DNA from: Oscillospiraceae bacterium
GTDB lineage: Bacteria; Bacillota; Clostridia; Oscillospirales; Ruminococcaceae
Direction of reading: 5' to 3'
Length of the DNA: 64,000 bases
NCBI GenBank assembly: GCA_017521325.1
Contig: JAFXCV010000051.1
Span: 1 to 64,000 of the forward strand
Part shown: positions 31 to 7,367 of the stretch, one piece after another
How the letters are laid out: each line of letters begins with the position of its first letter
Position numbering within the stretch: position 1 is the first letter of the stretch
Position numbers and translations under genes: made by a program
The notes under the pieces: generated by a model
Told to the model about the DNA's origin: nothing
Databases searched by the model: none
Seen by the model: the letters and a program-made list of their open reading frames with translations, nothing else

Positions 31-942
31 TCACTCTATTTCATCAAAACTGGAATTGAGGACTCTTCCCTCGGAGGGAAGCCTCCTGCGTTCCTCCGCT
101 TCTTCCAGAAGATCCTCCACATACTTGGGCAGCATGAATGCGCCCATGTGGAGATTCGTGGTATAGTACCACGTCTGCAAGCCCCTTGCCTTCCAGCGGG
201 CGGCATCAAGGTCATGCAGAGGATGGTATTTCTTTGACGCAAAGCCGAACAACCAGTATCCCGACGGGCAGGTCGGGATATGCGCCTGATACACACGACT
301 AATGGGGAAACAGCGGAATGCACGTTTATGCATCGCCGTACAGGCTTCCTCATCCTCATCAAAGAACGGACTGCCATGCTGATACACCATGATGCCGTCC
401 TCTTTGAGTGCCTTAAAACAGCTGCCGTAGAATTCCTTTGTAAAAAGGCCTGCCGTATGTCCAAAGGGGTTCGTGCTGTCATTGATGATCAGGTCGTACT
501 CGTTTTCCTTGCGCCGCAGGAATCGCAGACCGTCACGGTAGAAAATTTTCACTCGCTCATCCTCAAGTCCCCTTGCGTTATCAGGGAAGAACTCCTTGCA
601 CACCTGCACAAACAGCTCATCCGGTTCGACCACGTCAATCGACTCAATTTCATCATAATACGAAAGCTCTCTTGCTACGCCTCCGTCGCCGCCGCCGATG
701 ACAAGAACTTTTTTCACATGCGGATGCACCGCCATCGGCACATGCACAATCATTTCGTCGTAGGTAAATTCGTCCTTCTCGGAAAATATCACACTGCCGT
801 CCGAGGTCACGAACCGTCCAAATTCCTCGGACTCGAACACATCAATGCGCTGAAAGTCGCTCTCGCCCGAAAACAGCTGTTTTTCCACACGAATAGACAT
901 TTTCACGTTATTGGTATGCAGTTCCGAAAACCAGTAATCCAT
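31..942 (-). CDS. speE: Spermidine synthase
   Basis: This 303-residue protein has the class I methyltransferase-like fold of polyamine aminopropyltransferases, which move an aminopropyl group from decarboxylated S-adenosylmethionine to putrescine. The family signature IGGGDGG lies at about residues 82-88, the substrate segment YDEMIVHVP at about 61-69, and the gatekeeper Asp region INDSTNP at about 150-160. Length is normal for the family. The start codon lies 3 bases after the stop of the arginine decarboxylase gene, so the two are almost certainly cotranscribed and belong to one polyamine pathway. A third gene may follow beyond the left window edge. The enzyme is cytosolic. Confidence 0.95.
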   Translation of the reverse strand: MDYWFSELHTNNVKMSIRVEKQLFSGESDFQRIDVFESEEFGRFVTSDGSVIFSEKDEFTYDEMIVHVPMAVHPHVKKVLVIGGGDGGVARELSYYDEIESIDVVEPDELFVQVCKEFFPDNARGLEDERVKIFYRDGLRFLRRKENEYDLIINDSTNPFGHTAGLFTKEFYGSCFKALKEDGIMVYQHGSPFFDEDEEACTAMHKRAFRCFPISRVYQAHIPTCPSGYWLFGFASKKYHPLHDLDAARWKARGLQTWYYTTNLHMGAFMLPKYVEDLLEEAEERRRLPSEGRVLNSSFDEIE

Positions 943-2415: not shown

Positions 2416-2723
2416 CGATAAAAAATAAAAAACAGGTGATTTTTCATCACCTGTTTGTCAATCTCATATACATCACGAAAACAGATTGTTTCCGCCATTT
2501 CTGAGCTATAGTGCTGCGCATTGCCGCTTCTTATTGACCGTTTCACAAGTGATTAGATTATGATTATAAAGTTATCATCTTATAAAATTTGGGCTTTTAA
2601 CCCAATCAATAATGCAGCTTTTTCGCTGCGCTCGGCAATCCGACCCGCCTGTCCGTATGGGCTGTCCTTCCGCTGCTGCGGAAAGCGGTCGTGCGCTTTC
2701 AGCTATATCGCTTTACTACGCTA
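2416..2723 (-). ncRNA. Structured 5' leader of speA (candidate riboswitch or attenuator)
   Basis: About 300 transcribed bases lie between the promoter and speA. The first part is G+C-rich and can fold: an outer helix CGACC/GGGTCG encloses a hairpin TTCCGC-agca-GCGGAA and a second with GCC/GGC arms. It is followed by GCAGC-gaaaa-AGCTGC-type and TGGG...CCCA hairpins. The segment at 2553-2545 (ATCACTTGT on the minus strand) can pair over nine positions, with one G-U, with the 5' arm of the terminator, forming an antiterminator. I could not match it to a riboswitch class I know. The alternatives are a stand-alone small RNA ending at the terminator, or a dispersed intergenic repeat in the G+C-rich part. 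Confidence 0.55.
2418..2455 (-). terminator. Intrinsic terminator in the speA leader
   Basis: Reading toward speA, a perfect 10-bp stem (arms 2446-2455 and 2431-2440, loop GAAAA) is followed by a T-rich tract. It lies upstream of the speA start, between promoter and ribosome-binding site, so transcripts must read through it to express speA. This is the arrangement of an attenuator or riboswitch expression platform. Confidence 0.85.
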
Positions 2724-2729
2724 TATTGT

Positions 2730-2758
2730 ATTGTAGCATATTTTCTGTGGTTTGTCAA
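2730..2758 (-). promoter_or_regulatory. Sigma-A type promoter for the speA leader
   Basis: On the minus strand TTGACA (2758-2753) and TACAAT (2735-2730) are separated by exactly 17 bases. The predicted start is near 2723, leaving a leader of over 300 bases before speA. Confidence 0.85.
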
Positions 2759-3574: not shown

Positions 3575-5854
3575 TTATCTTCTGATAATTTCTTCAACAG
3601 GATTACCATTTTCGTCAAGTATTACCATGTAGAAATCTAAAGGATAATGTCTATATGCAGTTATATAAAAGAGTTCTTCCCCTTGAGAAATTTGATTATC
3701 TTCTACATAATCTGAATATGTCCAAACATAATAGTCATGTTTAGTTCTCATAATATCATCCACTATGTCTTTAGCTTCAGTTTCTGAATAACCTTTATCT
3801 ATATACTTTTGATATATGTTTGGATCAAGATTGACCAAATCTGTTGTTGGTATCATTTGAAGTGCAATCTCACACTTACCAATATCTGTTCTTATGTCTC
3901 CATCGCTATAGGCATAATATACATTTTCTTCAGAATACACAAACTCAACATTTGCATCCTCGAAATTATATACATCCATTGTTTTTACAAACCTGTAAAA
4001 GGACTCTCTAGGCAAAATAATAGAGCCCGGAGTAAGTTCTTCAATAGTCCACCAATAGTTTGAAACTACTGAAGTTTTTGTTACCGTATATTCACCCTTA
4101 TTAAGTTCGTATACAGGTTCTCCATTTTCATCAATTGGAATAAGATACCAATTGATAAATTCGAACGGATTAAACTTATTCTCATCTTTTAATAGAACGA
4201 TATATTCAGTATAAATGTACGTCGGTTCAATAATGTCATCAATCATCATACCAACAAGACCAGTTTCAAAATCTCTATAAGAACCATACGATTCTTCATA
4301 GTTCATCATAACTTTCTCTGCATTATCTTCTTCTACCAAAGGACGATAACACATATACTGGTTCCACTCGAAATCCGATGCTGTGAAATTATCCATAGTC
4401 GGACAGATTCCTTTCACATCAGTCCCTGATACAATCTGCACACCATAGCCATAAGCTATGCCATTGTGCATGCAATAATACAAACCAGGGTCTGCATATG
4501 CATATTCAATGGGATGATCAGACCATACAATCTGATATTTCTCAATATTAAACATTTTTGCTGTATTGAGAAGAATATCATATGTGTTCTGGTCAATCTG
4601 TTCGCCTTCATGAACCAAGTCTTCCATTGCAGGCGGGTTCCAATCGGCGGTTGTTGTGGTTGCCTGGGGTTCTGTTGTGGTGGTCGTGGTGGTTGTTTCC
4701 GTTGTAGTTGTGGTAGTCGTTTCTGTTGTGGTTGTTGCCTTCGTCGTGCTTGTCGTAGTCGTTGCCTTCGTCGTACTTGTTGTCGTAGTCGTAGGCTTCG
4801 TTGTCGTAGTCGTTGCCTTCGTCGTGCTTGTCGTAGTCGTCGTAGGCTTCGTTGTCGTAGTTGTTGCCTTCGTCGTACTTGTTGTCACGGTCGTGGGCTT
4901 CGTAGTTGTAGTCGTTGCCTTCGTCGTACTTGTTGTTGTCGTCGTAGGCTTCGTTGTCGTAGTCGTGGGCTTCGTAGTTGTAGTCGTTGCCTTCGTCGTA
5001 CTTGTTGTCATAGTCGTAGGTTTCGTAGTTGTGGTTGTTGCCTTCGTCGTACTTGTTGTCGTCGTAGGCTTCGTAGTTGTAGTTGTTGCCTTCGTCGTAC
5101 TTGTTGTTGTCGTCGTAGGCTTCGTAGTTGTGGTCGTTGCCTTCGTCGTACTTGTCGTAGGCTCTGTTGTGGCGGTTGTTGTCACTGTGGTAGTTGTACT
5201 TTCTTCAACTGCTTCTGGCTTATCACCATACATAATAGTGATAACCTCCTGCCCAGCAGCTTCTTTCTGCTCCAGAATCTGAAAGAAATCGTCATAAGAC
5301 ATTTCATCATAGTTTGAAGCATCACCATTTGTTACAAAATTCATCGGCACACAATTACGCATTCTCTGTGCGAAGATATAATCCGGCAGGCAGATGACAT
5401 CATCCTGAAAAAAATCATATTTTTTTATCATTTCTTTATCGTAGACCTTGACGGAATTGAGAATTTCTGTGATAATCACTTCAATATCCGAAAGCATCAA
5501 TGCATTGGGACTCACCATGCCGCTTCGTAAACTTCTGTTCATTGTTTCGCAGTTCTGAACATGGTATGGATTCTCCATTTCTGATTTTCTTACAGATACG
5601 CCATTGGCATATGCTGTATCAATCGAAATATCATCTGCAGCGCCATCGGAAACATTGAACAGGGCATTAAATTCCCACAATGTTCCATCTGCATCCCTAA
5701 AATAGCCTTTGGATTCATCCGCCGCCACGATGGTTGCAGACTCCGACTGCGTTTTGTCCTTCGCATCTACCCCACTTACTGTAAAGGGTGACACCATAAG
5801 TGCCAGAGTTAATGCGGTGGTGATACTACAAATCAAACCTTTCTGTTTTTTCAT
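3575..5854 (-). CDS. Secreted protein with long threonine-rich repeat linker
   Basis: About 759 residues starting at MKKQKG, chosen because AAAAGGAG lies six bases upstream; an earlier ATG at 5875 lacks such a site. A signal peptide (Lys-rich start, hydrophobic ALTLALMVS, cleavage near SGVDA) is followed by an N-terminal domain of about 180 residues, then a roughly 180-residue linker of TTSTTKATTTTTKP-like repeats, then a C-terminal domain of about 340 residues rich in Tyr and acidic residues. I do not recognise either domain. Thr-rich linkers are typical of cellulosomal and cell-surface proteins of Ruminococcus. The gene is more A+T-rich than its neighbours. The family is unknown. Confidence 0.75.
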   Translation of the reverse strand: MKKQKGLICSITTALTLALMVSPFTVSGVDAKDKTQSESATIVAADESKGYFRDADGTLWEFNALFNVSDGAADDISIDTAYANGVSVRKSEMENPYHVQNCETMNRSLRSGMVSPNALMLSDIEVIITEILNSVKVYDKEMIKKYDFFQDDVICLPDYIFAQRMRNCVPMNFVTNGDASNYDEMSYDDFFQILEQKEAAGQEVITIMYGDKPEAVEESTTTTVTTTATTEPTTSTTKATTTTTKPTTTTTSTTKATTTTTKPTTTTSTTKATTTTTKPTTMTTSTTKATTTTTKPTTTTTKPTTTTTSTTKATTTTTKPTTVTTSTTKATTTTTKPTTTTTSTTKATTTTTKPTTTTTSTTKATTTTSTTKATTTTETTTTTTTETTTTTTTTEPQATTTTADWNPPAMEDLVHEGEQIDQNTYDILLNTAKMFNIEKYQIVWSDHPIEYAYADPGLYYCMHNGIAYGYGVQIVSGTDVKGICPTMDNFTASDFEWNQYMCYRPLVEEDNAEKVMMNYEESYGSYRDFETGLVGMMIDDIIEPTYIYTEYIVLLKDENKFNPFEFINWYLIPIDENGEPVYELNKGEYTVTKTSVVSNYWWTIEELTPGSIILPRESFYRFVKTMDVYNFEDANVEFVYSEENVYYAYSDGDIRTDIGKCEIALQMIPTTDLVNLDPNIYQKYIDKGYSETEAKDIVDDIMRTKHDYYVWTYSDYVEDNQISQGEELFYITAYRHYPLDFYMVILDENGNPVEEIIRR
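4665..5205 (-). repeat. Imperfect tandem repeat encoding the Thr-rich linker
   Basis: Roughly a dozen imperfect 36-48-base units encode alternating (S)TTKATTTTTKPTT modules inside the secreted protein gene. Unit lengths vary in multiples of three, so the frame is kept. The opposite strand is also open here because of the repeat composition, but that is an artefact. Confidence 0.85.
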
Positions 5855-5883
5855 GCAATACTCCTTTTCATTCATTTTTTGTT

Positions 5884-6060
5884 TTACTTAAATCTTCTCT
5901 GCCCCGCATCATACACATACCCGATTCTTGCAAGCTTGTCAATGATCTCCTGCATATCGCAGTCATTGGTCTTGCAGAATTCCTCCAGACTTGGATAAAA
6001 ATCACGCAGCTGGGTATTCAAAAAGCTCACTAAAATGGCGGGATCGTTTGGGATGTTCAT
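5884..6060 (-). CDS. DUF4250 family small protein
   Basis: A 58-residue protein starting MNIPNDPAILVSF and ending GYVYDAGQRRFK. The pattern of an N-terminal NxPxDPxxLxSFxNTxLRD segment and a C-terminal IGYxYDxxxxxF segment is that of DUF4250, small cytosolic Firmicute proteins of unknown function. Its ATG overlaps the stop of the upstream dockerin-protein gene (TGATG), so it is probably translationally coupled to it. It ends about 30 bases before the start of the Thr-rich secreted protein gene on the same strand. Confidence 0.8.
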   Translation of the reverse strand: MNIPNDPAILVSFLNTQLRDFYPSLEEFCKTNDCDMQEIIDKLARIGYVYDAGQRRFK

Positions 6061-7367
6061 CACTGATCTTCGCCTTTCTGTGCCATAAATTCCTCCAGTG
6101 TACCCTTGAAATCGGCACCTGCTGCTGCCGCATAGGTCAGGATCATTGCAGCGTCAGTTGCACTGAAGCTCTCATTGCCCATTACCTTGGCAACACGCTC
6201 CTGCTCCTGAGTCAGACCGCTTTCGCCGCCTGCACCGACTGCCGCTGCTGCCACAAGGATCATTGCGGCATCCGTTGCGTTCACGATACCGTCGGCACTG
6301 ACATCACCAAGGCGAAGCTCGATGGAATTGATGGAAATAATATTGGAATAGCTGTTGGTCAGCGGCTCGCTGTGACGCTGTCTGACACGCAGCTGAATGT
6401 AGTCATAATCCGTGAACGGAATATTGTTCGTTTCCGCAGAATCAACCACTCTCGTGCCGCCCGTGAACCATTGTCCATTAATAACGGATACCTCCTGCCA
6501 GCCGGTGTTGTTGATGTTGATTTCGGCGTACAGATCGCCGACGGTACCTTGATAGTCAAAATACCAGCTGTTCATTTTATAGTAATAATCCGCATATGCC
6601 ATCTCAATCGGATAGAACAGCTCGAAGGTCATGTAATAATTGCCCGCCTCTTCCGTCAGTACCTGAAGGTTCGAAATCTGTGGTGCCGGCAGTGCCGTCG
6701 GGGCAGTCAGTTCGCCCTGATTGCCGTCCTTACCGATGGACTGCTCCTCCGACCAGTCGCTGAAAAACGCCTGTGTCTCGTAGGTTTCCGCATCGGCATA
6801 CTGGAGCATGTATCTTGCACGGAAGGTAACAGTGTGGTTTTCGTCATCGAAATTCGGGCAGTCGTGTCCGTAATAGTCATTGTAGATCCAGACAAGGGCG
6901 TCCTTGATATTCTCATAGTCCGTCATATTCTCGTCCGAACCGCCAAGCACGGAAGTATTATCACAGAGCCAATCGCCGGCATGGGGCCAGCAGATACCGT
7001 TGTAAAAATCGCAGCCGTAGATTTCCTCATCCCATGCGGCATCGTACTGCCATTCGCCGTCATCGATTCTGTAGTCGATCTGCATCACAAGGCTCATATC
7101 CTCCAGACCATATGCCTCACACATCGCTGCTTTATCCTGCCATGCGATCAGGAAATCATAGACCTCCTGTGAATTGGCAAAGGTCGGCTCGATCCAGAAG
7201 CTTTCCTCGTTATTATCCAGCAGGATATGGTGGACGGAGGGCGTCTGGGTGAAGCCATCGGGGAAGAAATCCTGCTCAAAATTCTTTTCGGTTTCAGCTG
7301 CTGCCGGAAGTGAGCAGACTCCAAGACAGAGCGCTGCAGCTGTCATCATTGCGGTCATTCGTTTCAT
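6060..7367 (-). CDS. Secreted protein with C-terminal degenerate dockerin
   Basis: A 435-residue exported protein. A signal peptide (MKRMTAMM then an Ala/Leu core, cleavage near PAAAE) is preceded by AAGGAGG at good spacing. The body of about 300 residues is Tyr-, Trp- and Asp-rich, beta-type, with no recognised catalytic motif. The last 90 residues resemble a dockerin type I: a clear first calcium loop (GDVSADGIVNATDAAMIL) and a second repeat that keeps SATDAAMILTYAAAA but has lost most loop acidic residues. Cellulosomal or surface attachment is therefore likely but the second calcium site may not be functional. Function of the main domain is unknown. Confidence 0.75.
   Translation of the reverse strand: MKRMTAMMTAAALCLGVCSLPAAAETEKNFEQDFFPDGFTQTPSVHHILLDNNEESFWIEPTFANSQEVYDFLIAWQDKAAMCEAYGLEDMSLVMQIDYRIDDGEWQYDAAWDEEIYGCDFYNGICWPHAGDWLCDNTSVLGGSDENMTDYENIKDALVWIYNDYYGHDCPNFDDENHTVTFRARYMLQYADAETYETQAFFSDWSEEQSIGKDGNQGELTAPTALPAPQISNLQVLTEEAGNYYMTFELFYPIEMAYADYYYKMNSWYFDYQGTVGDLYAEININNTGWQEVSVINGQWFTGGTRVVDSAETNNIPFTDYDYIQLRVRQRHSEPLTNSYSNIISINSIELRLGDVSADGIVNATDAAMILVAAAAVGAGGESGLTQEQERVAKVMGNESFSATDAAMILTYAAAAGADFKGTLEEFMAQKGEDQ

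Follow-up and report, generated by a model that had tools for sequence, protein, structure and literature searches.

A conserved attenuation leader of polyamine genes in Bacillota contains the Rfam family RF02440 and is a candidate spermidine riboswitch

Introduction

Polyamines have a high affinity for RNA, and there has long been a search for a natural, widespread receptor that recognizes them. Earlier claims of polyamine receptors were judged unconvincing by Salvail et al. (2023), who described a spermidine riboswitch that is a variant of SAM-I and gave an alignment of 13 representatives (PMC10853860). It controls polyamine genes (speE, speB and ldcC) by way of a terminator and is switched OFF by spermidine (PMC10853860). 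The leader described here likewise combines polyamine genes with a terminator, but it differs in architecture from the SAM-I fold of that RNA, and a search with the Rfam models gave no match to the SAM-I or any other SAM family, even at an E-value of 10. In enterobacteria, a polyamine decarboxylase gene is also preceded by an attenuation leader, the speF leader with its peptide SpeFL and the speF 5' element (PMC6386406), but that system is peptide-based, whereas the present leader lacks a conserved ORF. The potE and odc1 motifs (Brewer et al. 2021, PMC8632094) are further polyamine-associated RNA motif candidates; they were described with other genes, the main text of that paper giving neither ldc nor speA, and it is by this description that they are set apart from the present leader.

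The closest described relative is a small RNA of streptococci. Rfam family RF02440, "Streptococcus sRNA SpF59 (ldcC RNA)", is a 54 nt model of type Gene; sRNA. The pneumococcal RNA F59 was found between SP0915 and SP0916 (PMC3395615), and a 2025 survey places it (as M7/srn235/F59/Spd_sr49) at TIGR4 positions 869478-869804, a length of 327 nt, in 385 strains (PMC12323649). SP_0916 is the arginine decarboxylase SpeA (PMC7531197), and the gene downstream of the pneumococcal RNA is thus speA, as it is for the leader studied here. RF02440 and its pneumococcal members (F59, srn235, SN20, Spd_sr49) are homologous to this leader and span its helices P2 to P3 and the following UGCCGA. While RF02440 models a 54-nt sRNA gene, the present leader adds a core domain, a long-range closing helix (P1) and a terminator/antiterminator, and it occurs in many families of Bacillota.

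Results

The speA leader and its operon

The window, meaning the whole stretch of DNA analysed, comprises 64,000 nt of Oscillospiraceae bacterium (GCA_017521325.1, contig JAFXCV010000051.1, positions 1 to 64,000). Near its start, on the minus strand, lies speA (946-2400), the gene placed under the control of the leader, which encodes a PLP-dependent Orn/Lys/Arg decarboxylase (OKR_DC_1, by NCBIfam and Pfam checks). It is followed by the second gene of the operon, speE (31-942, minus strand), for spermidine synthase (polyamine aminopropyltransferase; TIGR00417 and NF002010 both above cut-off). SpeD is encoded on another contig of the same genome. Two other minus-strand genes of the window code for probably secreted proteins: one of 766 aa (3575-5875) that matches nothing in Pfam and contains a long linker of threonine-rich repeats (TTTTTKATTTTTKP), and one (6060-7367) with a C-terminal dockerin-like module (LGDVSADGIVNATDAAMIL, recognized by eye). 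Dockerin-like modules are found in cellulosome-forming Ruminococcus.

An initial annotation, made from the sequence of the window, had proposed that a strong promoter, a structured leader and a terminator precede speA, and all of its coordinates stand. The promoter is of the sigma-70 type (2730-2758, minus strand), with a -35 element TTGACA at 2758-2753, a 17-nt spacer and an extended -10 element TACAAT at 2735-2730, together matching 11 of 12 consensus positions, and transcription would start near 2722. About 290 nt further along the minus strand is an intrinsic terminator (2430-2456, minus strand), an 11-pair stem-loop followed by TTTATTTTTT and a U-rich tail reaching to about 2420. Both the speA ribosome-binding site (GAGGA, about 2412-2408) and the ATG at 2400 lie downstream of it.

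Upstream of the terminator is the switching segment AUCACUUGU (2545-2553, minus strand). When its pairing with the terminator 5' arm (2454-2446, ACAGGUGAU) was recomputed, the nine pairs of the proposed alternative fold were recovered, one of them U-G, and this antiterminator is mutually exclusive with the terminator's own pairing of 2454-2446 with 2440-2432. The whole segment forms the antiterminator 5' strand, and in the aptamer fold the CUUGU within it provides the 3' strand of helix P7. By free-energy folding of the window leader, the terminator form is at -100.2 kcal/mol compared with -88.7 kcal/mol when the antiterminator is enforced. The terminator form is thus preferred energetically even without a ligand, and an ON state would have to be kinetic or assisted.

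The sole Rfam match in the window is to RF02440 (2691-2632), which scores 48.3 bits where the gathering threshold is 37.2. The leader had been called unrecognised, and this needs qualification: its first 60 nt are RF02440, but the database files that family under sRNA genes, not under cis-regulatory elements. The reported lack of a T-box agrees with the Rfam search of the window and leader, which gave no T-box family match; nor did known riboswitch classes or ribosomal-protein leaders match, RF02440 being the only hit.

Architecture of the leader

Judged by comparison of sequences, the conserved leader extends over about 210 nt, of which RF02440 appears to cover the first domain only. In alignment A1, which comprises 47 divergent leaders, 34 columns are invariant, although most loci came from a search with an exact 19-nt core pattern; this selects for close members and makes that stretch look more invariant than it is. 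The leader is closed by the long-range helix P1, in which a 5' strand at 2692-2712 (minus strand; AGC.AUA..GCU....GCGCA) pairs with a 3' strand at 2504-2520 (minus strand; UGCGCAGCacUAUaGCU), as 2712-2692 with 2504-2520, the window's own pairing amounting to -13.2 kcal/mol. Across 59 leaders, P1 segments of the same leader pair at -10.83 kcal/mol compared with -6.91 (sd 0.31) for mismatched ones, a value reached in 0 of 5000 permutations, while the effect in a control was far weaker (-6.78 versus -6.01).

Within P1, the 5' domain (2641-2691, minus strand) consists of helix P2 (CGACC 2691-2687 with GGUCG 2645-2641; consensus GACC/GGUC), the variable hairpin P2b (2685-2666) and helix P3 (GCC 2662-2660 with GGC 2649-2647), which encloses the conserved loop CAUACGGACA. 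The closing pair of P2 is formed in 83 of 91 cases, where 44 were expected. P3 is paired in all 96 distinct 5' domains; its register was picked from four, which biases this count towards pairing, but the three pair sets observed (GGC/GCC, GCC/GGC and AGC/GCU) are genuine two-sided changes. After the 5' domain, alignment A1 shows a conserved UUGCCG (2638-2633) and the hairpin P4, formed by GCAGC (2629-2625) and GCUGC (2618-2614), the two together occupying 2614-2638 on the minus strand.

The core domain (2531-2612, minus strand) is closed by P5 (2612-2605 with 2538-2531; consensus UUAUUGAU/RUCAAUAA) and holds the hairpin P6 (GGG 2603-2601 with CCC 2593-2591), helix P7 (2587-2579 with 2549-2541; consensus UUUUAUAAG/CUUGUGAAA) and the hairpin P8 (2577-2561). 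RNAalifold on A1 misaligns the variable hairpins P4 and P9, and covariation counts were therefore taken from anchored extraction and from a separate core alignment, A2. Of five measures on A2, four lay above all 500 shuffles, among them the paired cells, the two-sided pair changes and the covariation score, and shifting the partner by 1-3 columns halved the pairing. P5 and P7, the strongest core helices, are almost invariant and so display conservation with little covariation. Related genes thus share a 5' leader with a conserved, structured receptor that shows covariation, as expected of a riboswitch.

In the window's clade, the 3' domain deviates from the majority consensus. The conserved UGCCG can there pair with a CGGCA(A) in the 3' domain, in the window as 2639-2633 with 2525-2519, and four other leaders offer the same pairing. 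The majority clade has no such pairing, which suggests that the 3' domain has been rebuilt. Four further leaders keep the core without the RF02440 5' domain, indicating that the core is separable; it may be that the core suffices as a receptor, or that the 5' domain is an accessory module. In two relatives of the same genus, the leader region is broken up by insertions that look foreign and end in inverted repeats, one lying between promoter and receptor and the other in the core, within P8. One leader, present also as a duplicate entry, has an apparent tandem duplication of the P8 hairpin, GTTGGCAACTCAATTGCCA being followed by GTTGGTTACTTCATAACCA.

Distribution and gene context

RF02440 matched 16 of 61 relatives and 18 of 398 genomes of the phylum, and conservation extends about 150 nt further beyond these matches. 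R1, a covariance model restricted to the core, matched 20 of the 398 genomes, with one copy in each, including all 18 genomes with RF02440; the two additional genomes have an R1 match without an RF02440 match, yet this again lies upstream of speA. In the genome of the window, R1 found a single copy (2612-2516, E 6.9e-15). The RNA model, the Rfam model and a DNA search all gave a single copy of the leader in its genome, which disposes of a genomic repeat element, the one reading that the initial annotation had named as an alternative should many copies be found. The core pattern CTTGTGAAACGRTCAATAA matched at least 118 stretches among GTDB contigs, and the titles among the matches listed belong to Bacillota, including Streptococcus, Bacillus, Paenibacillus, Lachnospiraceae, Oscillospiraceae, Faecalibacterium and Acidaminococcus. 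No exact core match was found in viral contigs, and a phage origin was rejected.

At least 149 loci were collected, and the downstream gene could be read in 142, its identity being checked with NCBIfam and Pfam. In every one of these the leader is followed by a polyamine gene: speA in 79, CASDH in 32, speD in 24 and potA in seven. All 40 operons that could be read for 5 kb downstream carry speE and/or CASDH, which, with SpeD encoded in the window's genome, points to spermidine as the common product. At one potA locus, an ORF for a 112-aa PII-like small protein (recognized by eye) sits between leader and potA, about 130-470 nt past the core.

Conservation of the switch

A terminator with a U-run lies ahead of the gene in 128 of the 142 leaders, and none was detected by the criteria used in the other 14. 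The antiterminator was examined by pairing a 16 nt segment ending in CUUGUG with the terminator 5' arm of its own or of other leaders (84 distinct leaders). Own pairings averaged -12.4 kcal/mol compared with -9.25 (sd 0.25) for mismatched ones, with 0 of 5000 permutations as strong, and the difference persisted with the constant CUUGUG left out (-6.38 versus -4.80, sd 0.20; 0/5000). A control region just upstream of the switching segment gave a null result in the same test. Such permutations are not a full phylogenetic null, a concern answered in part by restricting them to within clades, where own pairings again prevailed (-12.81 versus -10.04, sd 0.29; 0/5000). The initial annotation had made its proposal depend on the leader and antiterminator pairing being conserved in relatives, and both are. 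Selection appears to preserve complementarity between the P7 3' strand and the terminator arm, and this, on the comparative evidence, is the classical coupling of a receptor to its expression platform, here one with two exclusive folds.

The pneumococcal RNA can be read in the same terms. In S. pseudopneumoniae, the predicted length from promoter to U-run is about 330 nt, close to the 327 nt of the RNA detected in pneumococcus, and this suggests that termination occurs in cells.

Discussion

From sequence comparison, it is close to certain that this leader is a conserved cis-regulatory attenuator. The earlier proposal of a riboswitch-like attenuator of the polyamine operon is therefore strongly supported as regards the attenuator; as it also held, no known riboswitch class is matched, but RF02440 is. 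Probably the leader is a cis-acting, transcription-attenuating OFF riboswitch for a polyamine end product, spermidine being the likeliest. The fold, exclusive pairing, terminator and gene context are shown by comparison, and from these we infer direct binding of a small molecule, with spermidine or a close triamine as ligand and regulation in the OFF direction. In the mechanism envisaged, P1, formed by the 5' flank and the 3' domain, would close a receptor of about 210 nt made up of the 5' domain (P2, P2b, P3 and the CAUACGGACA loop) and the core (P5 to P8). Once stabilised by ligand, the receptor would hold the CUUGU of AUCACUUGU in P7, the downstream hairpin would form, and RNA polymerase would halt before speA; in the absence of ligand, AUCACUUGU would pair with the terminator 5' arm and speA-speE would be transcribed. 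The direction follows from P7 being compatible with the terminator and incompatible with the antiterminator, so that stabilising the receptor means termination. Genes of biosynthesis and of uptake (potA) stand under one leader and share spermidine as product, for which end-product repression is the most economical reading, and the same gene context favours this polyamine as ligand over arginine or guanidine.

The comparative signature would be much the same for a protein-binding attenuator, in which an RNA-binding regulator, perhaps polyamine-responsive, sets the balance between terminator and antiterminator, in the way that PyrR acts on pyr operons. Conserved loops and a long leader fit that explanation equally well, but no regulator gene recurs as the first gene beside the leader, and a multi-helix architecture of about 210 nt with 34 invariant columns is larger than protein-binding sites usually need; we regard it as unlikely. 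Much the same low probability attaches to a riboswitch of identical architecture that senses a precursor or co-substrate (arginine, agmatine, putrescine, S-adenosylmethionine or decarboxylated SAM). Leaders standing before speA or speD alone could sense any metabolite of the pathway, but those before potA, CASDH and speA have only the end product in common, and the CASDH pathway, which works without decarboxylated SAM, speaks against that compound in particular. A trans-acting small RNA with an incidental link to speA, as implied by Rfam and the pneumococcal surveys, is very improbable: a discrete RNA is indeed detected in S. pneumoniae (F59/srn235/Spd_sr49) and the Rfam type is Gene; sRNA, but each of the 142 readable copies immediately precedes a polyamine gene on the same strand, the antiterminator varies in concert with the terminator found in the same leader, and the length detected is that of the terminated leader. 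A secondary role in trans besides cis control is possible. Translation-coupled attenuation by a leader peptide, as in the ornithine-sensing SpeFL leader of enterobacterial speF, scarcely merits consideration even though the target gene is of the same kind, since an RBS-preceded ORF of at least 7 codons occurs in just 2 of 53 leaders, fewer than in shuffled ones (23%), with none in the window leader and no conserved translated short ORF among the leaders.

An OFF riboswitch for spermidine thus remains the preferred reading, and it would be novel as a class within the literature and databases searched, while homologous to the known RF02440 fragment. No description of the leader as a riboswitch was found in that literature, which included few subscription papers, and the main texts of Stav 2019, Brewer 2021, Narunsky 2024 and Weinberg 2010 give none. 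On this evidence, RF02440, each readable copy of which is the 5' leader of a polyamine gene and not an sRNA gene independent of its neighbour, appears to be a mis-typed fragment of a cis-regulatory leader; its label "ldcC RNA" may stem from work outside the literature searched.

Gut commensals, soil bacilli and streptococci all have this leader, with polyamine genes downstream in every readable case, and it provides a concrete RNA for a polyamine-receptor assay. On balance, we favour the view that it represents a widespread new class of polyamine riboswitch, large (~210 nt) and with no structural relation to the rare one derived from SAM-I. In many Bacillota it would be a main feedback regulator of both the synthesis and the uptake of polyamines, and its terminated product would have been catalogued for more than a decade as a pneumococcal small RNA. 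If this is true, RF02440 and the pneumococcal "sRNA" F59 would be re-annotated as a cis-regulator of speA, and the leader would reveal the means by which these bacteria regulate a metabolite linked to growth and stress.
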